DNA from: Bacillus sp. 522_BSPC
GTDB taxonomy: Bacteria > Bacillota > Bacilli > Bacillales > Cytobacillaceae
Direction of reading: 5' to 3'
Assembly (NCBI RefSeq): GCF_001076885.1
Contig: NZ_JVDT01000248.1
Span: forward strand, 174-61,355
Length of the DNA: 61,182 nucleotides
Positions 9,566 through 54,830 of this stretch are shown piece after piece. Position 1 is the stretch's first letter. Each line of letters starts with the position of its first letter. Under the pieces are notes generated by a model, which saw only the letters and a program-made list of their open reading frames with translations, made no database searches and was not told where the DNA came from. The position numbers and the translations under genes are program-made.

Positions 9566-9576
9566 TAGTTGATGGG

Positions 9577-9610: not shown

Positions 9611-9659
9611 TAAGCGGGGGAAAAGATGGAGATTACTTCAAAGTCTTACCTATCGCAAC

Positions 9660-14363
<4,704 letters not shown>

Positions 14364-32298: not shown

Positions 32299-32610
32299 GG
32301 TTAACCGGAATACATTATATCTTCGTATTTTTATATTTGAAGACTTTTTCATAAAAAATTATGATTTTATTGCAGTTTAAACTTTCGGTTTTTTGACCAT
32401 AAAGTAAATATATGGTTCGGTTTATTAACCATCGAAGTATTCTTCGATGGTCAGAAAGCCGAAAGGCTACTCCCAAAAAGCATTGATATCAAGGGTTTTT
32501 GAGAGTAGAGAACTACAAACGATGGAGTTTGAATTCGTTGCTTAGAAGAATTTCGGTTTCTTAACCAGTCAAATTCTCTCTATTGCCAATTTTTTCGGTT
32601 AGCTGACCAG
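32299..32610. repeat. Cluster of TTCGGTT-ACCA motifs and hairpins
   Basis: The 17-base pattern TTCGGTTnnnTnACCAn occurs at 32384, 32416, 32552 and 32594, with a related GGTTAACCGG at 32299. Between them are a perfect hairpin (ACCATCGAAG, TATT loop, CTTCGATGGT, 32428-32451) bounded by TTCGG/CCGAA, and the inverted repeat CTACTCCCAAAAA / TTTTTGAGAGTAG near 32472-32510. The last two copies lie inside the 3' end of the following recombinase gene. It looks like a recombinase or accessory-factor binding region, possibly part of an attachment site. The rest of the 360-base gap (32197-32560) holds no gene. Confidence 0.65.
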
Positions 32611-36188: not shown

Positions 36189-37697
36189 ATGATTACAGGT
36201 GAAATTAAAAATAAAATCGATGGGATTTGGACAACGCTTTGGACAGAGGGCAATACAAATCCATTAACAAATATTGAGCAATTAACTTATTTGCTGTTCA
36301 TTAAAGGATTAGATGAAAGCGAATTGCGTAAAGAAAAGGAAGCAGCTTTTTTAGGCTTAGAACATACAGGGATATTTTCTGAAATGCCAGCTGATTTTAC
36401 AGATATACAAAAAGAGCATTGGCCAAAAATGTGATGGACTCAATTTAAACAACTACCTGCTGAAGAGATGCACCAAGTTATGGTAACGACCATCTTCCCG
36501 TTTATTAAAACATTAGGCGGCAAAGAGGATTCTGCATTCTCTAAATATATGAAAGACGCTTCATTCCTGATTAATAAACCAGCAACACTTCAAAAAGTTG
36601 TTACTGCACTTGATAGTATTCCAATGGAAGATCGTGATACACAAGGAGACATATATGAGTATCTATTATCAAAGTTACAAACTTCAGGTACAAACGGTCA
36701 GTTTCGTACACCACGCCACATTATCAATATGATTGTTGAATTAATGAAACCTACACCTAAAGATACAATTATTGACCCTGCAATGGGATCAGCGGGATTT
36801 TTAGTATCAGCAAGTGAATACTTACGGAAAAACAACAACGATTTATTCCTAGTACACGGTTTAAAAGAACATTTTCACAACACGATGTTTTACGGGTATG
36901 ATATGGATTCAACTATGTTACGCATTGGTGCAATGAATATGATGCTACATGGTGTTGATGCACCAAATATTGAATATCGTGATTCTATTTCTGAAGATAA
37001 TAAGGATGAAGATAAATATACAATGGTTTTAGCGAACCCTCCTTTCAAGGGTTCCGTTGATAAAGAATCAGTTGCTAATGATTTGAGCTATGTAATGAGT
37101 AAAAATTCAAAATCTGCTAAGACAGAATTATTATTTTTAGCATTAATTCTTCGTATATTAAAACCGGGTGGACGAGCAGCTGTCATTGTACCAGATGGCG
37201 TGTTATTCGGTAGCTCTAATGCCCATAAAGCCATTAGAAAAGAGATTATCGACAACAACAAACTAGAAGCCATCATTTCTATGCCAAGTGGCGTATTCAA
37301 ACCATATGCCGGAGTATCAACAGGAATCATGGTTTTCACCAAAACAGGCACAGGCGGCACAGATAAAGTCTGGTTTTATGATATGAGGGCAGATGGATTT
37401 TCTTTAAATGACCATCGTACGCCAATTGCAGAAAATGATATTCCAGAAATTATTGCCCGATTTGGTAACTTACAAGGTGAAGCAGAACGCAAACGGACAG
37501 AACAATCATTCTTGGTACCAGTCGATGAAATCCGCGAGCAAAGTTATGACTTATCTATTAATAAGTATAAAGAGATTGAGTATGAGGAAATGGAATATAA
37601 AAAGCCTGAAATTATTATCGATCAGCTTTTACATTTAGAAAGTGATATTCAAAAAGGTCTAAACGAGATAAAAGAACTAATTAAGGAGAATCGCTAA
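36189..37697 (+). pseudogene. hsdM: Type I DNA methyltransferase subunit HsdM, in-frame TGA
   Basis: N6-adenine methyltransferase subunit of a type I restriction-modification system, about 502 codons. The N-terminal helical domain (36189-36431) and the catalytic domain are in one frame, separated by TGA at 36432-36434, so EHWPKM is followed by stop and then WTQFKQLPAEEM. The rest is intact: SAM motif DPAMGSAGFLV and catalytic NPPF (VLANPPFKG). In relatives the stop position is usually Arg, so CGA to TGA is the simplest change. Options are a nonsense mutation, a read-through site or a sequencing error; restart at ATG 36468 would give a protein without its N-terminal domain. Because HsdM is needed for both modification and specificity, loss would disable the system. 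Confidence 0.85.
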
Positions 37698-38854
37698 TGA
37701 ATTTACGAAAGTTGAGCGATGTTTGCGAAATAATTATGGGGCAATCTCCTGATTCATCTTCGTATAATGAAAGTGGTGAAGGCTTACCATTCTTTCAAGG
37801 TAAAGCGGACTTCGGTGAATTATATCCGATACCTAGAATGTATTGCAATAAACCCTTAAAAATCGCAATTACTAACGATATATTAATGTCAGTTAGAGCG
37901 CCGGTTGGTGACGTAAATATTGCAACAGAAGAATGTTGTATTGGTCGTGGTGTAGCTGCCATTCGTAGTAAAGAGAATATTGATTTTAAATATTTATATT
38001 ATGTGCTGGAATTTATGAAAGAGAGAATTGCTAGTTTAGGAACAGGTAGTACTTTTAAAGCTATCAGTAAAATACCGCTTTCTTCTATTGAAATCCCAGT
38101 ACCAACTTTAGAACAACAGATTAAGATTGTAAATGTATTGGATAAGGTAAAAGATGCGATTAACAAACGCCACTATCAACTTGCAACATTAGATGAATTA
38201 ACGCAAAGTTTGTTTTTAGAGATGTTTGGAAATCCTGTTGCAAATTCTAAAGGATGGGATATAGCATCTTGTAAAGATATAACTGAAAAAATTGGTTCAG
38301 GTTCAACCCCTAGAGGGGGAAATGCTAGTTATAAAGAAAGTGGTATCAGTTTAATAAGAAGTTTAAATGTCCATAACAACAATTTTACTTTAAAAGATTT
38401 AGCCTTTATTGATGATCGTCAGGCAGAAAAATTAAAAAATGTTGAAGTACAAGAAAATGATATTTTACTTAATATTACAGGAGCTTCAGTGGCAAGAAGT
38501 TGTATAGTTCCTAATAATATTTTACCCGCAAGAGTTAATCAGCATGTTTCTATAATAAGGGTAAAAGAAAATTTTGTTAGTCATATTTTTTTAAGTAATC
38601 TGTTTACAAATGAAATTTATCAGAGATATTTATGGCAAATAGCCACTAGCGGTGGGGCAACAAGGGAAGCTATAACAAAGCAGCAAATAGAAAATTTATC
38701 TATTATTTTGCCACCACTGAATTTGCAAAATGAATTTGCATATAAAATAGAACAAATTGAAAAACAGAGAACTTTAATGCAATCAAGTAAGGTAAAGCTA
38801 GAGAATATGTATAATTCACTACTCCAGAAAGCCTTCAAAGGGGAACTGTTTTAA
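37697..38854 (+). CDS. hsdS: Type I specificity subunit HsdS
   Basis: A 385-aa specificity subunit with two target-recognition domains (about 1-150 and 195-350) and the conserved helical spacers after each (LEQQIKIVNVLDKV near 140 and PPLNLQNEFAYKIEQIEKQR near 350). GSGSTPRGGNASY begins the second TRD, a common HsdS motif. The recognised DNA site cannot be predicted from sequence alone. Its ATG shares a base with the hsdM stop (TAATG). It looks intact. Confidence 0.92.
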   Translation: MNLRKLSDVCEIIMGQSPDSSSYNESGEGLPFFQGKADFGELYPIPRMYCNKPLKIAITNDILMSVRAPVGDVNIATEECCIGRGVAAIRSKENIDFKYLYYVLEFMKERIASLGTGSTFKAISKIPLSSIEIPVPTLEQQIKIVNVLDKVKDAINKRHYQLATLDELTQSLFLEMFGNPVANSKGWDIASCKDITEKIGSGSTPRGGNASYKESGISLIRSLNVHNNNFTLKDLAFIDDRQAEKLKNVEVQENDILLNITGASVARSCIVPNNILPARVNQHVSIIRVKENFVSHIFLSNLFTNEIYQRYLWQIATSGGATREAITKQQIENLSIILPPLNLQNEFAYKIEQIEKQRTLMQSSKVKLENMYNSLLQKAFKGELF

Positions 38855-38897
38855 CAATAAGAACTGAATGAATTTATCTCGTAAAGGAGTTGATGTG

Positions 38898-41800
38898 ATG
38901 TCGAATTTTGGATTTTTGCAGGAGAAACAAGCATTTAGTAGCTTTACCAATGCTTGTTTAGAAGCAGAAAAAGCGATGCAAGTTAGTCCAGCGACGTGTG
39001 CGATTTTATCGCGCCGCGCGCTGGAGTTAGCGGTGAAATGGGTGTATCAGTTTGACCAAGATGTAAAGATTCCATATCAAGATAATTTATCAAGCTTAAT
39101 TCATGATAGACATTTCCTAGCCATTATTGATGAAGAATTGTTGCCGATGTTGAAATATGTTGTGAAGTTAGGCAATGCAGCTGTGCATACAAATGTTGCA
39201 ATTACACGAGATGAAGCGGTTTTATCATTACACAATTTACATCAATTTATTTCATGGATTGATTATTGTTATGCAGAGGAATTTACATCATCGGAATTTA
39301 ATGAATCTCTTCTTTATACATCGGAGTACAAGCGTGAACGACCGGAAGAACTTCACGATTTATATGAAAAACTAAGTGCAAAAGACCAGAGTCTAGAAGA
39401 GTTGCGTAAACAAAATGAAGAACTTCGTAAGGAGTTAACAGCGAACCGAGTTATGCAACAAGAAGAATATCAGTTTCAAGTCGATGAAATATCAGAGTTT
39501 GAAACACGGAAACGTTATATTGACCTAGACTTGAAATTAGCAGGCTGGGAAATCGCTAAAAATGTGCTTGAGGAATATCCAGTGCGAGGAATGCCGAACA
39601 ACACCGGGGAAGGCTTTGTTGACTATGTGTTACTTGGGACAAACGGTAAAGTGTTAGCAGTTGTCGAAGCAAAACGGACTTCGAGAGATGCAAAAGTTGG
39701 TCGTCAGCAAGCTAAGCTGTATGCAGATTGTATTGAACAAGCCCAGCAAATTCGACCAGTTATTTACTATACGAATGGCTTTGAAACCCATATTTGGCAT
39801 GATGAATATCCTGCTCGCAGTACATCTGGATTTTATACTCAAGATGAATTACAACTTATCATTGATCGCCGAAAGTTGAAGAAACCATTAGTCAATATTG
39901 AAATTAATGATGACATAACTAATCGTTATTATCAAAAGGAAGCAATATTGGCTGTTTGTGATGCATTCAGTCATAACGGGCGTAAAGCATTACTCGTCAT
40001 GGCAACAGGAAGTGGGAAAACTCGTACTGCCATTTCATTAGTGGATGTACTAACGAGGCATCATTGGATTAAAAATGTGTTATTTTTAGCGGATCGTAAG
40101 TCACTTGTTAAGCAAGCATTCCGTAACTTTAACACACTCTTACCGAACTTGTCTTTAAGTAATATGCTTGAGAAAAAGTCGAATCCAGAGGATGCGCGGA
40201 TGGTTTTTTCAACATATCCAACGATGATGAACTCGATTGATGAAGTGAAAAGTAAAGATGGAAACCGTTTATTTACGGTCGGTCATTTCGATTTAATCAT
40301 TATCGATGAATCTCACCGCTCGATTTATCAAAAGTATAAAAGTATTTTTGACTATTTTGATGGGATGCTTGTTGGGTTAACCGCAACACCAAAGGATGAA
40401 CTGGATAAAAACACGTATACGATTTTTGATTTAGAAAATGGCGTACCTACTTTTGCCTATGAGCTGTCAAAAGCAGTAGAAGACGAGTATTTAGTTGATT
40501 ATCGCACACGTGAGACAACATTAAAGATTTTAGATGATGGGATTCGTTATGATGATTTATCAAAAGAAGAGCAAGAAGAATTTGATGAAATTTTTGAAGA
40601 TGAGCCACAGGTAAAAGATATCGACAGTGCTGCGATAAATCAATTTGTCTTTAATAAAAATACAATTGATCACGTTCTGCAAGATGTTATGGAACACGGC
40701 ATTAAAGTAGAAGGCGGCGATAAACTAGGAAAGACAATTATATTTGCGAAAAATCATAAGCACGCTCTAGCAATTAAAGAGCGTTTCGATTTGAAATTCC
40801 CTGAATTCGGTGGCAGTTTTGCAGAAGTTATTGATTACAGCGTGGAATATTACCAAACGTTGATTGATGACTTTTCAGATAAAAATAAAATGCCACAAAT
40901 TGCGATTTCGGTTGATATGCTTGATACAGGAATTGATGTACCAGAAGTTGTAAATCTCGTTTTCTTCAAAAAAGTTCGTTCTAAAACGAAATTCTGGCAA
41001 ATGATTGGTCGCGGTACACGTTTGTGTGAGGATTTATTTGGTCCGGGAATGGATAAAGAGTATTTCCTGATTTTTGATTATTTGCGAAACTTTGAGTATT
41101 TTCGTGCCAATGAAAAAGGAGAAGAATCGAAAGTCACACAAACCCTTACAGAAAAGTTGTTTAACTCAAAGGTGGATATTGTTCGTGAGTTGCAAGATGT
41201 TCAGTATCAAGTACAGCCCTATTCTGAATACCGTCAGCAGTTAATAAAAGAAATATTGGCTGATATACGTGCATTAAACGATGAAAATTTCCGAGTGCGT
41301 CAATATTTGCAATACGTGCATAAGTATCAAAACGCAGACAACTGGCAAGCTTTATCCGTTGTTCAGACTAACGAAGTAAAAGAAAATATTTCACCGTTAA
41401 TAGCACCACTTGATGATGATGAATTAGCCAAGCGTTTTGACTTATTAATGTTAACAATAGAATTGGCACAATTGCAGTCAAACAATGCAACTAAACCTAT
41501 TCGTCGAGTTGTTGATACAGCAGAGGCACTTTCTAAATTAGGAACAATTCCATCAGTAGAAGCACAAAAAGAAATTATTGATGAAGTGCGAACAAGTGAG
41601 TTTTGGCAAGAAGCCTCGATAGCAGATTTAGAAAAAGTACGTGAGGCCTTGCGTGATTTAATTCGCTATATTGAGCGTACCCAACAGAAAATTTATTACA
41701 CTGATTTTAAAGATGAAGTAATGGAAGTAAGAGAAAACGAGTCGATTTTAAATGTGAATGATCTTCAAAGCTATCGTAAAAAGGTCGAACATTATTTAAA

Positions 41801-42236
41801 AGAACATCAACATGAAGACACATTAGCAATCTATAAACTTCGTAATAATAAGCCATTAACTAAACAAGATATTGAGTACTTAGAGCAAATTCTATGGAAT
41901 GAACTAGGCTCTAAAGAACAGTATGAAAAAGATTTTGGTGATACACCAATAACAAAACTTGTTCGGAAAATCGTTGGACTAGACCGAAAAGCAGCTGTTG
42001 AAGCTTTCTCTAAATTCTTATCAGAAGAAAATCTAAATCTACAACAAACTCGATTTGTCGAATTAATTATCGATTATGTAGTGAAAAACGGAACTCTTGA
42101 GCGTCAAGCTTTACAACAGGATCCTTTTACAACATTAGGCGGGATAACAGTCGTGTTCAAAGACCAACTACCAAAAGCAAAAGGGATTTTGGATATTATT
42201 GATATGATTAATCGTAATGCAGAGGGGATTTCTTGA
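38898..42236 (+). CDS. hsdR: Type I restriction endonuclease HsdR (EcoEI/DUF4145 type)
   Basis: A 1112-aa motor/nuclease subunit. The N-terminus (about 20-110) is a DUF4145 domain (ATCAILSRRALELAVKWVY). The HsdR_N nuclease follows, with the PD-(D/E)XK signature ending VVEAKRT near residue 255-262. The SF2 translocase has Walker A MATGSGKTRT, the DESH box IIDESHRS and motif VI MIGRGTRL, and an EcoEI-type C-terminal domain ends the protein. I start at ATG 38898, where AAAGGAG sits eight bases upstream; the upstream ATG 38868 lacks a site. It requires a working HsdM/HsdS to cut, so its activity depends on how the hsdM stop is resolved. It ends 57 bases before a hairpin terminator. Confidence 0.93.
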   Translation: MSNFGFLQEKQAFSSFTNACLEAEKAMQVSPATCAILSRRALELAVKWVYQFDQDVKIPYQDNLSSLIHDRHFLAIIDEELLPMLKYVVKLGNAAVHTNVAITRDEAVLSLHNLHQFISWIDYCYAEEFTSSEFNESLLYTSEYKRERPEELHDLYEKLSAKDQSLEELRKQNEELRKELTANRVMQQEEYQFQVDEISEFETRKRYIDLDLKLAGWEIAKNVLEEYPVRGMPNNTGEGFVDYVLLGTNGKVLAVVEAKRTSRDAKVGRQQAKLYADCIEQAQQIRPVIYYTNGFETHIWHDEYPARSTSGFYTQDELQLIIDRRKLKKPLVNIEINDDITNRYYQKEAILAVCDAFSHNGRKALLVMATGSGKTRTAISLVDVLTRHHWIKNVLFLADRKSLVKQAFRNFNTLLPNLSLSNMLEKKSNPEDARMVFSTYPTMMNSIDEVKSKDGNRLFTVGHFDLIIIDESHRSIYQKYKSIFDYFDGMLVGLTATPKDELDKNTYTIFDLENGVPTFAYELSKAVEDEYLVDYRTRETTLKILDDGIRYDDLSKEEQEEFDEIFEDEPQVKDIDSAAINQFVFNKNTIDHVLQDVMEHGIKVEGGDKLGKTIIFAKNHKHALAIKERFDLKFPEFGGSFAEVIDYSVEYYQTLIDDFSDKNKMPQIAISVDMLDTGIDVPEVVNLVFFKKVRSKTKFWQMIGRGTRLCEDLFGPGMDKEYFLIFDYLRNFEYFRANEKGEESKVTQTLTEKLFNSKVDIVRELQDVQYQVQPYSEYRQQLIKEILADIRALNDENFRVRQYLQYVHKYQNADNWQALSVVQTNEVKENISPLIAPLDDDELAKRFDLLMLTIELAQLQSNNATKPIRRVVDTAEALSKLGTIPSVEAQKEIIDEVRTSEFWQEASIADLEKVREALRDLIRYIERTQQKIYYTDFKDEVMEVRENESILNVNDLQSYRKKVEHYLKEHQHEDTLAIYKLRNNKPLTKQDIEYLEQILWNELGSKEQYEKDFGDTPITKLVRKIVGLDRKAAVEAFSKFLSEENLNLQQTRFVELIIDYVVKNGTLERQALQQDPFTTLGGITVVFKDQLPKAKGILDIIDMINRNAEGIS

Positions 42237-43313: not shown

Positions 43314-44915
43314 GTGATTAATAGAATCATAATAAAAAACTATAAATCCATTCAAAACTTGGATTTAAGATTGAATGATACTATGAACATCCTTGTAGGA
43401 AATAATGAGCAAGGTAAATCTACTATTTTGGAAGCAATTAACTTGGCCTTAACTGGTTTACTCCATCGGCGGAGTATACATAACGAGTTAAATCCATTTA
43501 TTTTTAATAAAGAGATTGTTAATAGGTATATTTGTGATGTTAAACGGGGTAGCAGAGAAAAACCACCACATATATTAATAGAAATTTATATCCAAGAGAA
43601 TGAACAAACATCGCATTTAAAAGGAACAATCAATTCAGTTAGAGAGAATGCTTGTGGTGTAAAGTTAGAAATTGAGTTTAATGAAGAATACTCTGAAGAA
43701 TATGAGCATTATATTGAATCCACATCTGATATTTATAATGTTCCAATTGAGTACTATAAGGTTAGTTGGCATTCTTTTGCATCTAATGCCATCACCAGCC
43801 GAAACGTCCCTGTAAAATGCATCCTTATTGATACTACTGAAGGAAAAACATGGAATGGTCCTGATAGGTATATATCTAATGTTATTGGTGGCACATTGGA
43901 TTCCAAACAACGTGCAGCTCTAAATTTCCATTTTAGAGATATTAAAGAGCAATTTTCTAGTATTGAAGCAATCTCGGAGTTGAATACGGCGCTATCTCAA
44001 AGAACGGGAGAAATATCGGAAAAGAATCTGGCAATTTCTTTAGATATTTCTCAAAAAAACGGTTGGGAATCTAACCTCATTGCTTATTTAGATAGTATAC
44101 CGTTTGATTTAATAGGAAAAGGTGAACAGAATTCAATTAAACTAAAATTGTCGCTAGAAGCTAGTGAAAACGATGCTCATGTTGTATTAATTGAAGAGCC
44201 AGAAAATCACCTATCATTCACAAATCTGAATAAACTAGTAGACCAAATTTCTAGTAAGTGCGAAGGGAAGCAGATTGTATTAACAACCCATAGTAATTAT
44301 GTATTAAATAAATTGGGGTTAGATAAGGTAATTCTTATTAATAACGGTAATCATATGACCTTAACAGATTTAAATGAAGATACATATGAGTATTTCAAAA
44401 AACTTCCGGGCTACGACACTCTCCGATTATTGTTATCGGAAAAAGCGATTCTAGTGGAAGGACCTTCTGATGAACTTATCGTTCAAAAGGCATACCTACA
44501 AAAGTACAATAAATTGCCTATTCATGATGGCATAGACGTAATAACCGTAAGAGGGTTATCATTTAAACGTTTTCTTGAAATTGCTGATAAATTAAAAAAG
44601 CAAGTTGCTGTAGTTACTGATAACGACGGGAATGTAGAACAAAATATAAAAAATAAGTATAGTGAGTATTTATCTCATCCAACAATTAAAATCTGTCACA
44701 GCACTGATGAGACATTAAAAACACTGGAACCTCAGTTGGTTGCAGTAAATGAAATTCAAAGAATGAATAATATCCTAGGAAAAGAGTTTTCTACAAAAGA
44801 CGATTTAATAAAATATATGACTGCTTCTGGCAATAAAAATGAATGTGCTTTGAGGATTTTTGACACAGAGGAAGTAATTGTAATACCGGAGTATATAAAT
44901 GAAGCTATTGAATAA
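43314..44915 (+). CDS. gajA: OLD-family ATPase/TOPRIM nuclease, GajA-like
   Basis: A 533-aa OLD-family protein: an N-terminal ABC-type ATPase with Walker A VGNNEQGKST (about residues 28-37), a signature region and Walker B IEEPENHLS (about 287-295), then a C-terminal TOPRIM domain with LVEGPSDEL (about 381-389) and VTDNDGN (about 438-444). In the Gabija system GajA is a sequence-specific nickase held off by nucleotides and released during phage infection. The next gene encodes a UvrD-like helicase, overlapping by 17 bases, exactly the GajA-GajB layout. GTG 43314 is the start. GajA of the founding Bacillus cereus system is, from memory, about 45 residues longer. Confidence 0.8.
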   Translation: MINRIIIKNYKSIQNLDLRLNDTMNILVGNNEQGKSTILEAINLALTGLLHRRSIHNELNPFIFNKEIVNRYICDVKRGSREKPPHILIEIYIQENEQTSHLKGTINSVRENACGVKLEIEFNEEYSEEYEHYIESTSDIYNVPIEYYKVSWHSFASNAITSRNVPVKCILIDTTEGKTWNGPDRYISNVIGGTLDSKQRAALNFHFRDIKEQFSSIEAISELNTALSQRTGEISEKNLAISLDISQKNGWESNLIAYLDSIPFDLIGKGEQNSIKLKLSLEASENDAHVVLIEEPENHLSFTNLNKLVDQISSKCEGKQIVLTTHSNYVLNKLGLDKVILINNGNHMTLTDLNEDTYEYFKKLPGYDTLRLLLSEKAILVEGPSDELIVQKAYLQKYNKLPIHDGIDVITVRGLSFKRFLEIADKLKKQVAVVTDNDGNVEQNIKNKYSEYLSHPTIKICHSTDETLKTLEPQLVAVNEIQRMNNILGKEFSTKDDLIKYMTASGNKNECALRIFDTEEVIVIPEYINEAIE

Positions 44916-46011
44916 TACAGTAATAATTGCTGCCGCTGGTTCAGGAAAAACATCAGATTTAGTTAAAAGAGCTAAGGAATGTAATGATAAAAAAATCTTA
45001 ATAACAACATTTACTATCGATAACACAGAAGAGATTAAAAACAAGTTTTATCAAGATTTGGGGTTTATTCCCCCCAATGTTACTATACAAACTTGGTTCT
45101 CGTTCTTACTAAGAGAATGCGTAAGACCGTATCAAAACTTCTTGTATGATGAAAAGCGAATTGAGAATATCGAGTTCGTAAATGGTATGTCAGTGCCGTT
45201 CGTCCCAAGAAGAGATACTAAGAGATACTATCTCCGGGAAGGCAAGTATATTTACACGGATAAAATATGTGAATTTGTGCTTAATGTAAATTTACTATCA
45301 AAAGGCATGGTAATTAGCCGTCTAGAAAATATGTATGATCTAATAATGATAGATGAAGTTCAGGATTTAGCAGGATCGGACTTAGACTTTCTATACCTGT
45401 TATTATTCTCCAAGATCAACACAATTTTGGTGGGAGACAATAGACAAGCTACACTGTTCACGAACAACGGGAGAAAGAACAAGAAATACAAAGGGACCCA
45501 TATATTTAATTTATTTTCCGAGTGGGAAAAACAAAAGATTTGTTCAATTCACTATAAGACGGAGTGCCATAGAGGTAACCAATTAATATGCGATGTAGCC
45601 GATTCACTTTACCCTGAAATGCCCCAAACCACTTCAACAAACAAACTTATAACCGGTCATGATGGTGTGTTTTATATTAAAAGTCGTGACCTACAGGAAT
45701 ATATAAAAAAATATAAGCCAGTAGTTTTGAGATATGATAAAAGGACAAAATGTCCAGATTATTTATTTCCTCTAAACTTCGGAAAATCTAAGGGACTAAC
45801 TTTTGAAAGAGTTGTTATTTTAGTTAATGGGCCGATACAAAAATTCTTACAAAATGATTACCTTGCAGTAAGTAGTCCGAAGTCTAAAGCTGGTTTATAT
45901 GTTGCAATAACTAGAGCAAAATACAGTGTTACGTTCGTAACAGACCAAAAGGTAGTTTCAAACAAGTATGTAGCCGAATTCATTTTGGAAAAAGAATTAA
46001 TCGTTAATTAA
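44899..46011 (+). CDS. gajB: UvrD-like helicase, short GajB-like
   Basis: A 370-aa SF1 helicase partner. It has Walker A IAAAGSGKTSDLVK (about residues 9-22), motif II YDLIMIDEVQDLAG (about 147-160), motif III VGDNRQATLF, a GKSKGLTF motif V and motif VI YVAITRAKYSV. Canonical GajB, as I recall, is near 490 aa; this one is compact, with reduced 1B/2B-like insertions. It is translationally coupled to the OLD nuclease. In Gabija, GajB is proposed to sense DNA termini or unwound DNA and activate GajA. An unknown gene follows after a strong ribosome site. Confidence 0.78.
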   Translation: MKLLNNTVIIAAAGSGKTSDLVKRAKECNDKKILITTFTIDNTEEIKNKFYQDLGFIPPNVTIQTWFSFLLRECVRPYQNFLYDEKRIENIEFVNGMSVPFVPRRDTKRYYLREGKYIYTDKICEFVLNVNLLSKGMVISRLENMYDLIMIDEVQDLAGSDLDFLYLLLFSKINTILVGDNRQATLFTNNGRKNKKYKGTHIFNLFSEWEKQKICSIHYKTECHRGNQLICDVADSLYPEMPQTTSTNKLITGHDGVFYIKSRDLQEYIKKYKPVVLRYDKRTKCPDYLFPLNFGKSKGLTFERVVILVNGPIQKFLQNDYLAVSSPKSKAGLYVAITRAKYSVTFVTDQKVVSNKYVAEFILEKELIVN

Positions 46012-46025: not shown

Positions 46026-46421
46026 TTGGTTGCTTTTGATTGGGAATGTTCGGAATTTAAACTATTTAGTACAACAAATCTTGAAAACAACGTAAATGCA
46101 GATAAACTATTTGTAAGTTTTTTAGTGGAAGTTGAAAAGCAACGGAAAGATATTACCAAAACATTTACTATACAAGAAATAGCAAATATTATTCCAAAGG
46201 GAACAGCAGGGATTAACAATTATTCAACTTATGGTTTTTCATTTATGAGTATGCTGAGTGGTCAAAAGAATAGAGATTATTTTATTTTCGAGAATAAAGA
46301 ACTAAGAGGTGAGTTCACCTCAATATGTAATAATAATGTTGACAGAGATAACTATTATTGGAAGAAACACTGTTTAAATGAGCGTGTTAGGATTAATCCA
46401 AAATACTTGAAAAATATTTAA
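46026..46421 (+). CDS. Unknown third gene of the Gabija-like operon
   Basis: A 131-aa protein with no recognised family. It begins at TTG 46026, with a perfect AGGAGG nine bases upstream and only 14 bases after gajB, so it is almost certainly co-transcribed. The middle (DITKTFTIQEIANIIPKGTAG) looks like a short helix-turn-helix or small basic helix, and a second part (YSTYGFSFMSMLSGQKNRDYF) is rich in aromatic residues. Canonical Gabija has two genes, so this may be a regulator, an extra effector or a separate gene. No transmembrane segment or nuclease motif is visible. Confidence 0.55.
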   Translation: MVAFDWECSEFKLFSTTNLENNVNADKLFVSFLVEVEKQRKDITKTFTIQEIANIIPKGTAGINNYSTYGFSFMSMLSGQKNRDYFIFENKELRGEFTSICNNNVDRDNYYWKKHCLNERVRINPKYLKNI

Positions 46422-46509
46422 CTGTTTTTCAACTAATAGTTTATTTAAAAAAAATAAAAATTTAACATCCTAATTATGTAGAAATAGTTACTGACCGGAG
46501 GGAATTATT

Positions 46510-47478
46510 ATGTACTATCCAAATAACATTGAAGAAAAATGTTATGAAGAGCAACATATAGAAGGTGTTTTGACAGAGATAAAGGCAAATTTTCATGATT
46601 ACTTTGATTTATTTTTTCAATCAGAAGCAGGAGCAGCATTAAAAGAAGAACAAGTTAAAAAGTTAGCTGAAAAGTTCGGTAGTGAAGGTGTTGTAAAAAC
46701 TCGTCAAAAGAATACCGGTTCGGTATTAAAGAGAATTATTAGTGAAGGTATTGAAAAGTTTGAAAAAGATCGTAAAAAGTATAAAGACTTACTAGAGGAA
46801 GAAGCATTAGAAGAATATGAGGATAATCCCGCAGGATTTAAAAGTGTATTGAAAAAGGATTGTCCTATTATTCTTGGAACGCTAATGAGTCCTGCCAAGG
46901 AGTTAGATAAATATAAGTACGAATTTAATAAATCCAATCCTAATGAATTACTTTCCGTTTGTCAAAATTTAGCCTCCTTTGCCAATAATTATGCAGCAGA
47001 ATGTGAAGATTTTGATTATGATTCAATAAGTTCGTTAAGTGATTTGGAATTTAAAGAACTAGATACAGAGGACTACTCTGTTTTCGGGGTAATAGGTGGA
47101 GGGATTAAGAGCCAATTTTTATTTAAATTGCATCCAGCATATTTTCCATATCGTTCAAAAGAAGCCATTTGGGCTCTCTGGTATCTAACTGATAAAAAGA
47201 CTTTTGAATGTGAGGAAGGTTCCCAGTTTCTAATGATTAACGTGGAAAAGAGTCTCACTAACCAAAACTATTTTTATCCTTATGAATTATTTAGCTTTTA
47301 CGCTTATCAAGTTTACCTACTTTTGAAAAAAGAAGCTGAGAAGAATCGTGTTCAAATACCTGATGAATATCGTTATGTTTTGGTAGACCAATTCTTTACT
47401 TTTATTGCGAAAATGCATGAGGAAGACATTAAATTTATATCAAGCAGTTCGGAGGATAAACCATACTCATGGATATAA
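46510..47478 (+). CDS. Unknown partner of the RecQ-nuclease
   Basis: A 322-aa protein with no family I recognise. The N-terminal half is strongly charged and helical (EKFEKDRKKYKDLLEEEALEE), the middle has a proline-glycine turn (GVIGGGIKSQFLFKLHPAYF), and the second half is rich in tyrosine and aromatic residues. It is preceded by GGAGGG and overlaps the RecQ-like gene by ten bases, so the two are a coupled pair. Possible roles are a phage sensor, an adaptor that brings the helicase to DNA, or a nuclease of unknown fold; the sequence does not choose between these. Confidence 0.6.
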   Translation: MYYPNNIEEKCYEEQHIEGVLTEIKANFHDYFDLFFQSEAGAALKEEQVKKLAEKFGSEGVVKTRQKNTGSVLKRIISEGIEKFEKDRKKYKDLLEEEALEEYEDNPAGFKSVLKKDCPIILGTLMSPAKELDKYKYEFNKSNPNELLSVCQNLASFANNYAAECEDFDYDSISSLSDLEFKELDTEDYSVFGVIGGGIKSQFLFKLHPAYFPYRSKEAIWALWYLTDKKTFECEEGSQFLMINVEKSLTNQNYFYPYELFSFYAYQVYLLLKKEAEKNRVQIPDEYRYVLVDQFFTFIAKMHEEDIKFISSSSEDKPYSWI

Positions 47479-49439
47479 AAAATTTATTTAAACAATCATT
47501 TCCAAAATTGGCTGCGAAATTTGATTTAACTGATTTTCAAGAAACCGTCATTCAATCGGTGCTTACAAAAGAGAACACTCTTTGTATTATGCCAACTGGT
47601 GGAGGTAAATCCTTAACTTATTGGCTATCTGGATTGGGCCTTAATGGGATTACCCTAGTGATTTCTCCTTTAACCGCTCTAATCGATGAACAGGCTAATA
47701 ATCTGGAGGAACATGGGTATAAAGTATTAACTTTACACGCAGGTATTGATGCAAAGAAACAAGTAAAATTGCTAAAGGATTTTTATAGACGAGAACTAAA
47801 TCCTGACTTTATTTTTGCAAGCCCTGAAAGGATATCTACTGATGGGTTGTTTGAGTATTGCGTAAAGGCGCGGAAAGATGAGTTCAAATTAATTGCTATA
47901 GATGAGATCCACTGCGTTTCCCAATGGGGTCATAGTTTTCGCCCATTTTATAAGCATATCCCCACTTTTCTAGATAATGTTTATGGTGATAATTGGCCAA
48001 CGATACTTGGTTTATCGGCTACTTTAAATAGAAAGGAAGTAGCTGACATTTGTGAATCTTTTCGAATAAAAAATAGAGCAGTAATAAAAAGTGATTTGCT
48101 TGTCCGAACAGAAATTGAATTGAAGACCTTTAAATTCATTAAAGAGGATGAAAAGCTAGGAAAATTATGGCAATTGCTCAAGATTCATCAGAACGAAAAG
48201 ACTCTTGTCTATATATATCGGGTAAAAGGAAAGAACAGTACTGAAGATTTGGCGAAATTAGCCATAGAGAAAGGCATTAGGGCAACGCATTTCCATGGAG
48301 AGGTGTCCTCCAAAGAGAAGCAAAATATTATAGAACGCTTTAAAAACAATGAATTAGATGTAGTATTTGCAACAAATGCTTTTGGAATGGGCATAGATAT
48401 TCCTGATATTCGTGTTGTAATTCATTTTATGATCCCTGAATCAGTTGCCCAATATTATCAAGAAGTTGGGAGAGCCTCTCGTGACAAACAGGCATCTAAT
48501 GCTTATCTGTTATATTCAAACAAAAATATAGAGGTCAAAAAATCTCATTTTATTAATAAATCCTTCCCTACTATTGATGAATTGAAAGAAGCATTTACCA
48601 AAATGACTTCTAACAAAATAGGATATAAAACACTTTCCTATTTTGATGACGAGGATATACAAAAATGTCTGCCTTATTTTGTGGATAATGGGATAATTGA
48701 AATTGTGGCAAAAGGTATTACGAATCTTGATGTTTTTTCTAATGTAAATGATTCTGAGTTAACAACTTTAATGTCCTTAACGAAAACTAAAAATATTATC
48801 ACCACAATGAAAAAAAGCGGTAAGTCCGCCAAAGAAATTAGCGACATTATTTTTGAATCCATTGTAACTGATCGGGTGAGACTGGAAAAAAGCCTTGGGA
48901 AGTGCTTAATTATTCACAGTAATTTAGAAGAACTTGATGAACAAGCATTGCAGCGACTAGAGCAATACGGGAAAGATAAACAAGAATTTAAGCACGCCCA
49001 TTTAGATTACTTTGTTCATATCCTTGAAAACTGTGGAAATTCAAGGGAATTACATCAGGAAATTGGGCGGCATTTAGGAGTTCCTAAGTTTCTACTTGGC
49101 AAAATTTATTCAACGACAAAAGGTGATCTTGTACGCTCAAAATCCGAGGTAATCATTTCAAACTTGTTACATCAACATAATATTAAATACGAATATGAGA
49201 AAGAAATGTATTACAATGGAGATAATCGAATATCCCCTGATTTCACCATTACAATAAACGGTAAAGAGTATTACTGGGAGCATTTGGGGATGATTGGTAA
49301 GGATGATTACGATACCCGTTGGTTAGAGAAGCAGGCGGTTTATGATGACTACTTTCCTGATCAGCTTTTCGTTACATATGAAAATCCATCATTAACAAAA
49401 TCAGTAGAATCATTGATTGCTGATTTAAAAACTAGATAG
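47469..49439 (+). CDS. RecQ-family helicase fused to a candidate PD-(D/E)XK nuclease
   Basis: A 656-aa SF2 helicase. Residues about 20-330 are RecQ-like: Walker A MPTGGGKS (41-48), VISPLTALIDEQ, DEIHC box AIDEIHCVSQWGHSFRP, SAT motif LGLSATL, motif V FATNAFGMGIDIPDIRVVIH and motif VI QEVGRASRD. A helical middle follows, with no clear RQC zinc site. The C-terminal 100 residues look like a PD-(D/E)XK or Vsr-like endonuclease: SEVIISNLL (about 558), SPDFTI (about 588) and EHLGM (about 603) supply the acidic residues. It is coupled to the preceding 322-aa gene. RecQ housekeeping enzymes do not carry this nuclease; the fusion and the defence neighbourhood point to an anti-phage role. Confidence 0.75.
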   Translation: MDIKNLFKQSFPKLAAKFDLTDFQETVIQSVLTKENTLCIMPTGGGKSLTYWLSGLGLNGITLVISPLTALIDEQANNLEEHGYKVLTLHAGIDAKKQVKLLKDFYRRELNPDFIFASPERISTDGLFEYCVKARKDEFKLIAIDEIHCVSQWGHSFRPFYKHIPTFLDNVYGDNWPTILGLSATLNRKEVADICESFRIKNRAVIKSDLLVRTEIELKTFKFIKEDEKLGKLWQLLKIHQNEKTLVYIYRVKGKNSTEDLAKLAIEKGIRATHFHGEVSSKEKQNIIERFKNNELDVVFATNAFGMGIDIPDIRVVIHFMIPESVAQYYQEVGRASRDKQASNAYLLYSNKNIEVKKSHFINKSFPTIDELKEAFTKMTSNKIGYKTLSYFDDEDIQKCLPYFVDNGIIEIVAKGITNLDVFSNVNDSELTTLMSLTKTKNIITTMKKSGKSAKEISDIIFESIVTDRVRLEKSLGKCLIIHSNLEELDEQALQRLEQYGKDKQEFKHAHLDYFVHILENCGNSRELHQEIGRHLGVPKFLLGKIYSTTKGDLVRSKSEVIISNLLHQHNIKYEYEKEMYYNGDNRISPDFTITINGKEYYWEHLGMIGKDDYDTRWLEKQAVYDDYFPDQLFVTYENPSLTKSVESLIADLKTR

Positions 49440-49771: not shown

Positions 49772-52700
49772 ATGGTGGATATTTCGTTTATAATTAAACC
49801 TATAATCGGGAAATTAATAGGTCTAATAAGTGGAAGTTTAATAGAAAAGTGGAAAATCAAAGGAAAATTTAAAAAGATAAAAGACTTCAGAAAAGAGTAT
49901 GAAGATACATTTGTTGATTCAAATTCATTTCAAAAGTTTCTAAATGATGAAAAGAATGGACTATTAATATTTAACTACGTATTTGGGGCTAGTTATAGAT
50001 CAGTTACTAAAGTTGCTTTTGTTGAGCAATTGTCTAAACTAGCAACCAATGAAATAAATAATTATAGAAAATCAGTTCATTTAGAAGAAATAAACAATCA
50101 TCCAATTGTAAATCAATATCTTAATGATTTAATCACATATCTTGAAGAGTATAGAGATAAAAGTTTTAAGTCAAATGAAATGAGTATTGTATCTAATATC
50201 CAAAATACCATTGTAGAAAACAACAAGGTATTGCAAGAGTATTTTGAGAATAATTTGTTAGAAATTCAAGAAAGATCTTATTTGGAAAAATTCACAGACG
50301 AATACTTAGAAAAGATCCTAGAACGAAACATTTTGGATTTAGGGAAAAGGTATATTTCAGATGCCAATGTAAAAACGGATTTTAACGGTTTATTTGATTC
50401 TCTAGCAAGTAATAAACGAGTCTTTACTAAATTTAGAGAATTACTAGGTACCTTACAAATGAGTATAAAGGAGTTTAGTAGCACTTTCAATAAACATATA
50501 ATAGATTTAGGGTACAATGATGGAAAGTTTATTGATGAGTTTTTACATTATTTAAATGGAATTGATTGCGATAATAAAAAATTCTATTTAAACAGTAATT
50601 TTAAGTACTTCTCTGAAGAAATTAATAGTTTTATGGTAAAAGTAGCTGGAATACGACACAAATTATATGAAGAAGGTAGAAAGAATGCAAGAGAAGAGTT
50701 AATCAATCCAATTAGCACAATACATAAATGTGAAAGAGATTTAAATGATTATATAGACTTGGTACGACCAATGTTAATTAATGAGCCTTATTTATTGATG
50801 TATGGGGATGCGGGAATAGGTAAATCGCATTTATTAGCCGATAACGCTAAAAGACTGCAGCGGGAAGGCCATAGTGTGTTCTTATTTTTAGGTCAACATT
50901 TAAATACTCATGACCATCCATTTAAACAAATGTTTAATTTGATTGATTATAAAGGTTCCAAAGAGTCTTTTCTGAAAGAATTTAATGATAGAGCTGTTAA
51001 AAAAAATAAAAGAACTGTAATTTTAATAGATGCTTTAAATGAAGGAGCAGGTAAATATTTCTGGAAAAATTACTTGTTGAACTTTTTAAATTCCATTAAA
51101 GAATTTGAAAATATTGCTGTGGTGTTATCTGTTAGAAGTAACTATGTTAGAAGCGTACTACCTGAGAATATTGAGGGAGAATTTCCATTACTTAAAATTG
51201 AACACAAGGGATTTAAGAATTTAAGTTTAGAAGCCTTAGAGCCTTTTTTCAATTACTATAGAATAAATCCATTGGCATTCCCATCTTTGGAAAATGAGTG
51301 TTACAACCCTCTGTTCTTACAGATTTATTGTGAAGCAATTCAAGAAGAATATGTGGGATATAGAGGTTGGAGTATAGTTGAGGTATTGGACAGATATGTG
51401 GAAAAGGTTAATCGTAAATTATCGCTAGATCAAAGATTTTCATATACAAGCTCGTTAAATCTGGTTGATAAAATATTGAGAGAAATTGCTGCGAAATTTA
51501 TTGAAGAAAAAAGTAATTTCATTAAATTGACCGAACTCTACGAAATAATATCCAGACTGGCGAGGCCTTATACAGCTGGATATCGAGAGCTGATTTTAGG
51601 TTTACAAGAAGAAAATATTTTATCAATAAATTCAGGGTATCGTGGTGAAAGTTTAACTTATTTTACTTATGAAAGATTTGCAGATATATATATTTCCTTA
51701 GTATTATTAGAAAAACATCAGCAAGAGGATCAAAGAACTTTTGAAAAAATACTGTTATCAGATAATCCATATTATTATGGAGTTTATGAGAGTCTCTCGA
51801 TAATACTACCTGAGAAGTTAAACATAGAATTACTTGATTTAGTTGATAACAAACTTATAACTTTTAATGTAGCAGAATCTTTTGTTCGAGGTATCTCATG
51901 GAGGAATGTAAAATATATAAACGAAAGAACTTTGTATTGGATAAATTTATGTCTAAGACAAAAAAGTACAAATTTAACAAGTTTAGTTTATGAAAACTTG
52001 TTAAAGCAGTCATTTCTTATAGAATCCCCCTTAAATGCAAATTTTTTACATGATAACATTTATCCTATAACAATGGCTATAAGGGATGGAAGTTGGACTA
52101 TATCTATAAATAATAATTCAGAAGTGCCTACTCGATTGGTAGAAGTTATTTTAAAACAAAATTTAAGCATTCAACACTTCAAATATGAGAATCTTGAATT
52201 ACTGTCTTTGACCATTATTTGGTTTTTTACAAGTACGGACCGTAAGCTAAGAGATACTTCTACTACTGCTCTAGTAAAACTATATATTAACGAACCATCG
52301 ATTATTTTTCAGAATATTAATAGATTTATTGATGTTAATGATCCATATGTATTGGAAAGACTGTTGGCAAGTGCATATGGGGCAATTCTAAGATCTAAGG
52401 AAGTACCTCAACTAGAGAAAATAGTTGATATAATTTATGCTCAAATATTTAATCAGGATGAAGTTTATCCTAATGTCTTAATAAGAGATTATGCGAGAGG
52501 TATAATTTTATTTGCTGCTAATATAGGGCTTATTAAGCTTGAAGAATTTGAAAAAATAAACCCTCCATATTCTAGTAATTGGTATAAAAAACTGTATACC
52601 TTAGAAGATGTAGATGAAAAGTTAACAGAAATGCAGCAAGTAGCAGGGGAAGCGTTTAGTGGGTTTCATGCGATAGTAAGATCTATGACAACAGAATACG

Positions 52701-54016
52701 GAAGAGGAACTTCAGCTTATGGGGATTTTGGAAGATATGTTTTAGGAAGTGTAGTATCTGATTGGGGAAATCAATTTAACGACCAAGATTTAAGCAATAT
52801 TGCTACAATGAGGATTATTGACTATGGATATGATGAAAAAACACATGGTTACTATGATAAAAATTTAAGAAATTATAATAGACATGAAAATCTAGTGGAA
52901 CGTATTGGTAAAAAATATCAATGGATTGCATTATATGAATTATTAGCTAAATTAACAGATAACTATCCTATATATAAAGAAATTAAGTTATATACTCCTG
53001 AATATCAAAAATATAAGCAATTGCAAAATGAAAGAATATATTCATATATGGATAAAAAATTTAAAACTCAATCAGGAGAAGATATAGAACTGATTGTCGA
53101 GGAAAATGAAGTAACTTTTAAAGAAGAAGATCATTTTCTAGGAATCAAGAAAGATTATTACAAAAATTACAATGGACCTTGGGATCCATTCCTAAGAGAC
53201 ATTGATCCTAGTTTATTGGAGTACCCAACAAAAAATAGTAATCAACAAAAATTAATTAAATCATATTTGCCATATACACCAGATAAAATGTGGGCGCAAA
53301 ATAAAGAAGAGTTTAATAAGCTTGATGAATTTATATTTATCGAGTATGAAGGTAATAAATATATATCTTTAGCCCAATTACTTGTCCAAAGCAGAGATAA
53401 TGGTAAAAAATTTGTTGATAAGGATGAATTTTGCATAAAGGCAAAGGGAGTGTTTTTATCTAATTCAGACAAAGAAAAATATATTGCTTTGAAATCAGAA
53501 AAGAAAGGAGATATAAGTGTTTCTTGGGCAAATGCGTATAGTGTATTTGCATTTGAACATTATTGGCATCCATCCTTCTCTGATATGTTTTATAAAAATA
53601 GGTTTGAAGATATTGATTGTGAAGATGCAATATGGGAATATTTGTGGGAAACAAATATTAGTCCTGATTCTGGAGAAAGAAATTCTTGTAGCTACCTGAT
53701 GCCAAATGCTAATTTAGTAAAGTTTTTTAAGTTATTTCAAATATCAGAGGGAATTTGGAAAGATAGTGAGAATAATTTAGTAGCCTTTGATGCTGAGTAT
53801 ATGGGATATGAAAGTAATTTATTATTTAGAGCTGACTATTTAGAAAAATATTTAAGAGAAAATAATCTATCAGTGGTATGGGATTTTTATATGGAGAAGA
53901 TGTCAGAGCGCAGTAGAAAAGAAGAATGGTTCATATGTTGGACTGATAATGGAACTGATATAAAACACACTATATTAGATCAATATCAAGAATTAGAAAT
54001 GAAAGATAGATTTTAA
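49772..54016 (+). CDS. Large STAND-type NTPase, Avs-like defence protein
   Basis: A 1414-aa ATPase. Residues 1-330 are helical with a short hydrophobic start (IIKPIIGKLIGLISGSLIE). The NTPase core has Walker A YGDAGIGKSHLL (about 344-355) and Walker B VILIDALNEGAG (about 415-426), followed by an arginine sensor region (VVLSVRSNYVRSVL). The remaining about 900 residues form a large helical C-terminal part with ERIGKKYQWIALYELLAKL near 1050, a segment I associate with big Avs-like defence ATPases. Such proteins detect phage proteins with their C-terminal part and assemble on activation. I see no nuclease, protease or SIR2 effector domain at the N-terminus, so the effector may be the next gene. 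The start is ATG 49772, with GGAAGGGG 11 bases upstream. Confidence 0.7.
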   Translation: MVDISFIIKPIIGKLIGLISGSLIEKWKIKGKFKKIKDFRKEYEDTFVDSNSFQKFLNDEKNGLLIFNYVFGASYRSVTKVAFVEQLSKLATNEINNYRKSVHLEEINNHPIVNQYLNDLITYLEEYRDKSFKSNEMSIVSNIQNTIVENNKVLQEYFENNLLEIQERSYLEKFTDEYLEKILERNILDLGKRYISDANVKTDFNGLFDSLASNKRVFTKFRELLGTLQMSIKEFSSTFNKHIIDLGYNDGKFIDEFLHYLNGIDCDNKKFYLNSNFKYFSEEINSFMVKVAGIRHKLYEEGRKNAREELINPISTIHKCERDLNDYIDLVRPMLINEPYLLMYGDAGIGKSHLLADNAKRLQREGHSVFLFLGQHLNTHDHPFKQMFNLIDYKGSKESFLKEFNDRAVKKNKRTVILIDALNEGAGKYFWKNYLLNFLNSIKEFENIAVVLSVRSNYVRSVLPENIEGEFPLLKIEHKGFKNLSLEALEPFFNYYRINPLAFPSLENECYNPLFLQIYCEAIQEEYVGYRGWSIVEVLDRYVEKVNRKLSLDQRFSYTSSLNLVDKILREIAAKFIEEKSNFIKLTELYEIISRLARPYTAGYRELILGLQEENILSINSGYRGESLTYFTYERFADIYISLVLLEKHQQEDQRTFEKILLSDNPYYYGVYESLSIILPEKLNIELLDLVDNKLITFNVAESFVRGISWRNVKYINERTLYWINLCLRQKSTNLTSLVYENLLKQSFLIESPLNANFLHDNIYPITMAIRDGSWTISINNNSEVPTRLVEVILKQNLSIQHFKYENLELLSLTIIWFFTSTDRKLRDTSTTALVKLYINEPSIIFQNINRFIDVNDPYVLERLLASAYGAILRSKEVPQLEKIVDIIYAQIFNQDEVYPNVLIRDYARGIILFAANIGLIKLEEFEKINPPYSSNWYKKLYTLEDVDEKLTEMQQVAGEAFSGFHAIVRSMTTEYGRGTSAYGDFGRYVLGSVVSDWGNQFNDQDLSNIATMRIIDYGYDEKTHGYYDKNLRNYNRHENLVERIGKKYQWIALYELLAKLTDNYPIYKEIKLYTPEYQKYKQLQNERIYSYMDKKFKTQSGEDIELIVEENEVTFKEEDHFLGIKKDYYKNYNGPWDPFLRDIDPSLLEYPTKNSNQQKLIKSYLPYTPDKMWAQNKEEFNKLDEFIFIEYEGNKYISLAQLLVQSRDNGKKFVDKDEFCIKAKGVFLSNSDKEKYIALKSEKKGDISVSWANAYSVFAFEHYWHPSFSDMFYKNRFEDIDCEDAIWEYLWETNISPDSGERNSCSYLMPNANLVKFFKLFQISEGIWKDSENNLVAFDAEYMGYESNLLFRADYLEKYLRENNLSVVWDFYMEKMSERSRKEEWFICWTDNGTDIKHTILDQYQELEMKDRF

Positions 54017-54059: not shown

Positions 54060-54830
54060 ATGGAATATATAAATGAAATCCTATTAATAATTGTTGCTTT
54101 TTTATTAGGTTTATTTATAAAACAATTTCTGCCAAGTTACATGAAAGAAAAAGGCAAAAACCTTGCTACCAAAGAGGACATAGCTGAGATTACTAAACTT
54201 ACTGAAAATGTAAAGGCAGATATTCAAAAGGATCTTGAATCCCATAAGCGGAGTTTTGATGTTGAGATAGAGGAACTAAAGTTAAAGCAGAATCAACTAT
54301 TCACTAATTTTGAATTATATACAACTAAAAGACACGAGTGTTACCCAGAACTTTATAAACTTATAGAAATATGCAATGGTTCAATTAGGAGGTTAAGAGG
54401 AACACAAAGGGTATTAACATTTGAAAATGTTAATGCTCAAGATATTGAATCTTTCATGCAGGATAAGCTTTTCACATCTAATGATATCGAACTAATTTTA
54501 AGTCATTGGGATACAGATAAAAATAATGCTATTTTTTTGTTACATAAAAGATTACAGAGGCTAAATTATAACGAAGCTGAAGAAAAATTTATTGAAGCGA
54601 ATGATTATTTTTACTTTATGGTGCTTTACCTATCGGAAGATGTTGAATATATTGCAAGGGATCTATTAAAAAAATTGCACGGATTATGGATGAATTTTGA
54701 TCCGGACTATCCTTGGGATAAAATATTGGTTAATGAAAAGTGGTTATCTAATGACGAAGTAATTGTCCAAATTGACGAATTAAGAAATAATTTGAAGTTA
54801 AAAATGCGACAAGAGCTTTTACCAAGTTAG
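54060..54830 (+). CDS. Membrane-anchored protein, possible effector
   Basis: A 256-aa protein with one N-terminal membrane helix (about residues 4-24, EILLIIVAFLLGLFI) followed by a coiled-coil stretch with the common KGKNLATKEDIAEITKLTENV motif (about 33-53). The remainder is helical and acidic, with no known enzyme motif. AGGAGGTTT precedes the ATG and the gene starts 43 bases after the STAND NTPase, so they likely form a unit. Proteins of this type are widespread near defence genes; whether it kills by membrane disruption or merely anchors a complex is unknown. Confidence 0.6.
   Translation: MEYINEILLIIVAFLLGLFIKQFLPSYMKEKGKNLATKEDIAEITKLTENVKADIQKDLESHKRSFDVEIEELKLKQNQLFTNFELYTTKRHECYPELYKLIEICNGSIRRLRGTQRVLTFENVNAQDIESFMQDKLFTSNDIELILSHWDTDKNNAIFLLHKRLQRLNYNEAEEKFIEANDYFYFMVLYLSEDVEYIARDLLKKLHGLWMNFDPDYPWDKILVNEKWLSNDEVIVQIDELRNNLKLKMRQELLPS

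Follow-up and report, generated by a model that had tools for sequence, protein, structure and literature searches.

Does a RecQ-family helicase with a nuclease-like C-terminus, encoded next to a protein of no recognised family, belong to an immune system that has not yet been named? The question is raised by two overlapping genes in a stretch of 61,182 nucleotides from Bacillus sp. 522_BSPC (assembly GCF_001076885.1, contig NZ_JVDT01000248.1, forward-strand positions 174 to 61,355), referred to below as the window. Its nearest named relative is Ureibacillus aquaedulcis. A first-pass annotation, made from the sequence alone, had proposed the two genes as a new two-gene anti-phage system. The pair may form an unnamed immune system, because the same partner stands beside every copy in distantly related bacteria. 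A mobile two-gene nucleic-acid defence module, made of a helicase-nuclease and its partner, is the preferred reading and is given a probability of roughly 0.62. The features of the pair are as follows.

46497..46501, + strand: GGAGG, ribosome-binding-site-like, 8 nt 5' of the partner ATG (read in the sequence)
46510..47478, + strand: partner gene, open reading frame (ORF) of 322 aa, orphan family
47451..47455, + strand: GGAGG within the 3' end of the partner gene, 13 nt 5' of the RecQ ATG (read in the sequence)
47469..49439, + strand: RecQ-family helicase with a C-terminal PD-(D/E)XK-like nuclease domain, ORF of 656 aa
47469..48548, + strand: superfamily 2 (SF2)/RecQ helicase core, residues ~1-360 (Pfam DEAD 7.5e-25, Helicase_C 1.1e-29)
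48549..49088, + strand: middle region, residues ~361-540 (no Pfam RQC, zinc-binding or HRDC match; present too in the RecQs without nuclease described below)
49101..49424, + strand: PD-(D/E)XK-like nuclease domain, residues 545-652 (PADLOC PDC-S68, invariant residues, predicted fold)

Both ORFs are intact and overlap by 10 bp, as first described. The internal GGAGG 5' of RecQ might couple translation of RecQ to that of the partner.

Pairing of the partner and RecQ genes

The partner was found at one locus in genome contigs, in one of 72,556 plasmid records and on one viral contig. Among genomes of the same phylum, class and order, it was found in 2 of 398, 2 of 398 and 5 accepted of 7 matching out of 397, respectively, the source genome being counted in each sample; the distribution within the order is sparse. 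A match in genome G785 (E 5.7e-4), to an ORF that we take to be superoxide-dismutase-like, was dropped before counting, and a match in G887 (E 8.4e-4) was dropped as a frame with stops. The partner was found in none of 50,697 phage records, and no DNA of the pair was found in E. coli genomes. The class of G012, one of the genomes carrying the pair, gave nothing further; it holds G012 alone.

Ten distinct partner loci were retained. They come from the phylum of the window, from a viral contig and from a conjugative plasmid of a cyanobacterium. The neighbourhood survey suggested by the first-pass annotation gave a uniform result: a RecQ gene lies directly downstream of the partner, on the same strand, in 10 of 10 loci. 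The two genes overlap by 10-23 bp in nine loci and are separated by a 25-bp gap in one, some gene starts in this count being the choice of the longest frame. The association was also seen from the RecQ side. The nuclease domain was matched in 30 of 398 class genomes (33 matches, of which 30 loci were read); a RecQ core was present in the loci of two of these 30 genomes, the source genome and G633, both with the partner. The sole plasmid record covered to at least 80% by the whole RecQ-nuclease, from Aulosira, also carries the partner.

Eight window proteins (GajA, GajB, a 131-aa ORF, the partner, the RecQ-nuclease, an Avs2-like protein, a 256-aa and a 170-aa protein) were compared with the nine other loci (8-19 kb each) using tblastn at E 1e-3. 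Only the partner and RecQ recur, in nine of nine; the six others had no match. The pair is directly between a Gabija operon and an Avs2-like STAND NTPase gene on the same strand, a placement in the first-pass annotation that PADLOC bore out (GajA, GajB, Avs2-like), and it could accordingly be read as an accessory part of either system. However, GajA, GajB and the Avs2-like protein are among those without a match in the other nine loci, a search in which very distant relatives or genes further away would be missed. Since only the partner and RecQ recur there, the pair depends on neither Gabija nor Avs2, and an accessory role is very improbable. The conserved neighbour of the partner is RecQ, neither Gabija nor Avs2. 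The 131-aa ORF (46026-46421) was also considered as a third component and rejected: it had no family in Pfam, PADLOC or NCBIfam, no plasmid match and no counterpart in the nine other loci.

Pairwise identities of the partner and of RecQ run in step (Pearson 0.97, from 45 non-independent pairs). Against locus L003, the ratio of non-synonymous to synonymous substitutions (dN/dS) was 0.084 for the partner and 0.032 for the helicase core, with dS of 1.43 and 2.99, near saturation; for RecQ as a whole, as for its middle region and nuclease part, dS was saturated. Between loci L058 and L059, dN/dS was 0.114 for the partner, 0.111 for RecQ and 0.230 for the nuclease part. Both genes are apparently kept by selection.

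The partner itself had been called unrecognised, and it matched nothing in Pfam, NCBIfam, PADLOC (E 0.01) or PHROGs; sequence searches of the PDB returned chance-level matches only. Blocks conserved across five aligned copies include GVIGGGIKS (193-201), FLMI (240-243) and N[YF]FYPY (253-258). An HhH-GPD-like identity, for which the GVIGGGIKS...FPYRS block gave a lead, was not supported. The sole Pfam HhH-GPD match, in one of six partners (P0008, E 0.0058), sits elsewhere, at residues 27-99, and hhalign of the partner with an HhH-GPD protein of the same genome (L074, 388 aa, presumably MutY) gave nothing.

The RecQ-like protein and its C-terminal domain

The helicase part had first been described as complete. 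It reaches the cut-off of the NCBIfam family recQ_fam (TIGR00614, 246.8 bits for a cut-off of 219.8), and its SF2 core contains motifs I, II and VI of the RecQ family as PTGGGKS, DEIH and QEVGRASRD. All copies long enough to include these motifs have them in recognisable form. The protein does not have the features of a housekeeping RecQ, to judge from its sequence: the cut-off of the RecQ equivalog TIGR01389 was missed (277.9 vs 640.2 bits), no RQC, zinc-binding or HRDC match was obtained with Pfam at E 1, and it falls into a separate clade. A tree was built from 17 RecQ cores with a midpoint root, leaving out the incomplete RecQ of locus L006. All nine partner-linked RecQs group together in a single clade with support 100/98, which excludes the eight others, namely two from the source genome and six from plasmid records chosen out of 212 matching. 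The two further RecQ-like proteins of the source genome are 33% and 35% identical to the window protein over the core.

The SE, SPDF and EHLGM motifs noticed at first reading were located in VRSKSE (555-560), SPDF (589-592) and WEHLGM (603-608), within a domain whose conservation exceeds chance. The PADLOC model PDC-S68 (1202 positions) is matched with 121.1 bits, its positions 1091-1199 aligning with residues 544-652. Eight copies of the domain were aligned (the window, L003, the cyanobacterial plasmid, G633 and four other plasmid-borne proteins), which span three named phyla in addition to the phylum of the window. E560, E577, P590, D591, F592, E604, G607 and K621 are invariant in all eight, and E560, E577, D591, E604 and K621 are retained in seven of seven fused RecQ copies. 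E560, D591, E604 and, probably, K621 are predicted to be the catalytic residues.

The fold was predicted with AlphaFold2 for residues 513-656, using an alignment of seven rows. Block means of the predicted local distance difference test (pLDDT) were 73-90 over model residues 41-120. The secondary structure of the model (H46-57 E61-64 E80-84 E87-94 H100-116 E121-125) corresponds to an alpha-beta-beta-beta-alpha-beta core whose central strands bear acidic residues. Among the best 50 of 447 Foldseek matches in the PDB, with probabilities up to 1.00, were DrdV, Bax1, TnsA, Hjc, Can2, McrC and the R2 endonuclease; we take these 50 entries to be PD-(D/E)XK-type proteins. Bax1, a nuclease bound to the XPB helicase, is thus among the best structural neighbours. 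The C-terminal domain is therefore predicted, with moderate confidence, to adopt a PD-(D/E)XK nuclease-like fold, and metal-dependent DNA cleavage is its putative activity. The first-pass annotation had offered either a PD-(D/E)XK or a Vsr-like nuclease; the former stood, through Foldseek chains of which none had E <1e-3, and the Vsr alternative did not.

Weak matches to other families were also recorded: a PHROG of Holliday-junction resolvases (E 0.0033, residues 545-594) and, as the best Pfam family for the window copy, TPD (E 0.018, 15.3 bits for a cut-off of 27). TPD was matched by two of the eight domain copies (best E 0.0025), and seven other Pfam families by one copy each.

The domain is not restricted to this RecQ: profile matches place it also at the end of helicases/ATPases of ~1200 aa (PDC-S68). 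It was seen, in addition, in open frames of ~210-340 aa in several class genomes (L034-L042, L053, L055) and at the end of long helicase-like frames, presumably RecD-like, on five IMG/VR contigs (L016-L020). Viral contigs scanned with a single sequence of the domain yielded nothing.

Two operon forms, a possible mode of action and the genomic setting

The C-terminus of RecQ is visible in nine loci (the contig of L006 ends before it), and the nuclease is fused in seven of them. The RecQs of L005 (genome G012) and L060 (G841) have no nuclease and are 538 and 545 aa long. They end with ALNIT and LGVPYNRS, at the LGVP stretch that precedes the nuclease in the others, and the L060 protein aligns over residues 3-539. 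In both loci, a gene for a NERD/superfamily 1 (SF1) helicase (589 and 573 aa) stands before the partner. The L005 protein was identified by Pfam NERD (3.2e-16) and by a full-length match to PADLOC RTasNERD-Hel (259.2 bits); that of L060 was assigned from its similarity to the L005 protein (30.8% identity over residues 22-543). NERD-helicases were found at E 1e-40 in 25 of 398 phylum genomes (30 loci), and the partner and RecQ were near one in a single locus of the 30 (G012; flanks of at most 1.5 kb). Being common, and yet next to the partner and RecQ in one of 30 loci, the NERD gene seems to be a borrowed component. The proposal of a new two-gene composition was upheld for the pair, co-located in 10 of 10 loci, and not for an exclusively two-gene form, as a three-gene sister form exists.

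In the midpoint-rooted tree, the two RecQs without nuclease branch outside the seven fused ones. The simple reading, from few loci, is that the fusion took place once, in an ancestor shared by all two-gene loci. A fuller account would be an unnamed anti-invader system that combines a RecQ clade dedicated to it with a new family of sensors. Its three-gene form, with NERD/SF1 helicase, partner and plain RecQ, would apparently be the older one; the two-gene form would have arisen from it when RecQ acquired a PD-(D/E)XK domain by fusion and the NERD gene was lost. We put this account at even odds.

Constant pairing, purifying selection, conserved motifs, a predicted nuclease fold and two arrangements that exchange the nuclease part were obtained by computation. 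Protection against phages or plasmids would be the function that they suggest, with DNA as the presumed target, a physical complex of the two proteins and a role of the partner within it. In such a scheme, the RecQ helicase would load on single-stranded or damaged DNA of the invader (replication intermediates of a phage or plasmid) and translocate, and the C-terminal PD-(D/E)XK domain would cut that DNA. The 322-aa partner would bind the helicase as a sensor or licensing subunit; it might either keep the nuclease off host DNA, or recognise the invader and recruit or activate the enzyme. In the sister form, the nuclease would be supplied in trans by the NERD-nuclease/SF1-helicase gene of the same operon.

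The gene order could also be that of a toxin-antitoxin pair, a smaller upstream gene overlapping a toxic-looking downstream one. The RecQ-nuclease would then harm the DNA of its own cell unless neutralised by the partner, and any defence would be abortive infection. A precedent exists in RqlH, whose genotoxicity is held back by its operon partner RqlI (PMC4670107), and the PADLOC model PsyrT matches the helicase core of the window RecQ with 260 bits. This match is nevertheless limited to model positions 9-411 of 689, and no PADLOC model was matched by the partner at E 0.01. Moreover, because the nuclease of the sister form lies in a third gene, the partner tracks RecQ rather than the fused nuclease. 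A toxin-antitoxin pair is considered unlikely.

Several observations weigh against the defence module itself. The partner model (AlphaFold2, three rows) had a pLDDT of 39.3 and was mostly helical. The nuclease-domain model reached a pLDDT of 72.5 overall. None of its 447 Foldseek matches had E <=0.001 (best 6.4e-3), and the TM-score by query length was 0.27-0.47 with a large root mean square deviation among the best 50; the nuclease case therefore rests on the order of the fold, the motif and the kind of hits. A profile search of the PDB with the domain gave 11 chance-level matches, the best to a sorting nexin (E 0.18); T7 endonuclease I (E 0.19, 0.34) and Bax1 (8gy8, E 0.31) were among them, and all these sequence matches were taken as chance. 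The usual ExK motif is absent: E604 is followed by H605 and L606, with isoleucine in L058 and L059. Catalysis is uncertain because the usual position of the active-site lysine holds leucine or isoleucine; the invariant K621, in the next helix, may stand in for it. In the helicase, motif VI of L058 and L059 has N instead of D as its final residue; motif I is variable in L057 and L005. Around the pair, promoter-like sites were not in excess (11 vs 17.9 expected) and terminator-like sites were near expectation (2 vs 1.7). Finally, named defence systems were found beside the pair in only two of ten loci, the neighbours of L005 beyond the operon being outside the scan.

These two loci are the window and L058. 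In the window, the pair is preceded by a type I restriction-modification (RM) system (36468-42236; methylase and R subunit by profile, S subunit by reading) and by Gabija (43314-46011), and is followed by the Avs2-like gene (49772-54016). PADLOC scores were 689.6 bits for GajA, 395.1 bits for GajB and 764.3 bits for the Avs2-like STAND NTPase. In L058, the pair is accompanied by a type I RM system, ThsA (331.1 bits), ThsB (258.4 bits) and a PDC-S06 ATPase (148.2 bits). Locus L004 is on a conjugative plasmid. Annotated transposases lie close to it, and a neighbour of 218 aa is DruE-like (31.7 bits, weak). By reading, L006 has serine-recombinase ORFs and L008 an IS110-type transposase ORF. PADLOC found nothing in selected neighbours of L003, L059, L057, L006 and L008, and one weak BnzB match (26.6 bits) in those of L060.

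RecQ helicases take part in end resection, as do such nucleases. The pair might have no role in immunity and be a recombination or repair enzyme by which the mobile elements that carry it maintain themselves, through end processing or replication restart. Some copies are indeed on mobile DNA, namely the viral contig with serine-recombinase ORFs and the conjugative plasmid. Two copies, however, are found amid restriction, Gabija, Avs2-like or Thoeris genes, the source genome has two other RecQ-like genes, the distribution is sparse and no third window gene is common to the other loci. A pure upkeep function is judged quite unlikely.

Further observations were made in the window. The short GajB of the Gabija operon (370 aa) is of the PDLC00148/PDLC00140 type. 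The Avs2-like protein has 1414 aa, of which residues 101-1000 are the best PADLOC Avs2 stretch, and it missed the NCBIfam Avs2 cut-off (690.2 vs 1000). A gene for a 256-aa protein with a hydrophobic N-terminus (54060-54830; no PADLOC match) comes directly after it. Two adjacent serine recombinase genes (Resolvase/Recombinase domains, 32561-35451) are located left of the defence region, which itself lies right of an RNA uracil-5-methyltransferase gene (28422-29807). The defence island may be an integrated mobile element. No tRNA was detected in the window by ARAGORN. The region 6255-11209 contains a group II intron, recognised by Rfam RF02004 (6985-7183) and RF00029 (9575-9659), with a reverse transcriptase-HNH ORF (7685-9565). 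On its left, 6255-6953 encodes an N-terminal UvrD part; on its right, 9626-11209 encodes a C-terminal UvrD/PcrA part. A pcrA-like gene thus appears to be interrupted by the intron; a gene for an NAD-dependent DNA ligase lies beside this pcrA-like gene.

RecQ helicases are mostly known for guarding the genome. If the defence module is confirmed, a repair helicase would have been recruited as an immune engine, with a dedicated RecQ clade, an orphan partner and exchangeable nuclease parts. The partner would be a new protein family whose role as sensor or restraint is testable with two genes.

Comparison with known systems

The claim that no named system has this composition was borne out with the 2023 PADLOC models. 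The partner matched none (E 0.01), and the best 25 of the 49 families matched by RecQ, headed by DpdF and PsyrT, align with the helicase core only or, for PDC-S68, with the nuclease domain only. A literature search returned no description of the RecQ-partner pair in the texts that it covered, among them PMC9122126, PMC11078745, PMC4670107, PMC13192584 and PMC12278908; subscription papers and the DefenseFinder models were outside it and may hold a published name.

Gabija combines an OLD-like nuclease, GajA, with a helicase, GajB. The pair contains neither; GajA and GajB are its neighbours here and were not found beside it in the nine other loci. RTasNERD-Hel, which PADLOC files under DRT, matches the NERD-helicase of the L005 sister form over its full length, but it is a widely shared part, with the partner and RecQ beside one of 30 loci. 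The same C-terminal nuclease domain is found in PDC-S68, whose models are however 1202-1273 positions long; plasmids with such proteins of ~1200 aa lack the partner (tblastn, E 1e-5). We read these long proteins as RecD-like. DpdF of the Dpd system shares the RecQ-type helicase core (278.4 bits in PADLOC), but only this core aligns and the NCBIfam cut-off was missed (208.7 vs 550).

Hachiman (HamAB) likewise has two genes that give a helicase and a nuclease; its helicase detects damaged DNA and holds the nuclease in check (PMC12278908). In the pair, by contrast, the nuclease is fused to the helicase. No Pfam DUF1837, the HamA domain, was found in the partner or RecQ at E 1, and no Hachiman model was among the best 25 of 49 PADLOC families for RecQ or among the matches of the partner, which had none. 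Druantia III (DruH-DruE; PMC13192584) and Hachiman (PMC12278908) follow, with other proteins, the plan of working proposed for the pair. DruE is YprA-like (PMC13192584) and its PADLOC DruE3 models have 1460-2055 positions, whereas the protein here is a 656-aa RecQ; the partner, with its zero PADLOC families, is not recognised as DruH.

In RqlH, a RecQ helicase carries a phosphoribosyltransferase (PRTase) at its C-terminus, and the genotoxicity of RqlH is restrained by the operon partner RqlI (PMC4670107). RqlHI and PsyrTA therefore resemble the pair in having a RecQ-family core, a C-terminal effector and an operon with a second, possibly restraining, protein. They differ in the effector, which is PD-(D/E)XK-like here and a PRTase there. 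The partner also precedes the helicase, whereas rqlI comes after rqlH, and it is not DprA-like as in those systems, matching no Pfam, NCBIfam or PADLOC family. If the defence reading is right, RecQ would be a common chassis for immune effectors, carrying a PRTase in RqlH and a nuclease here.

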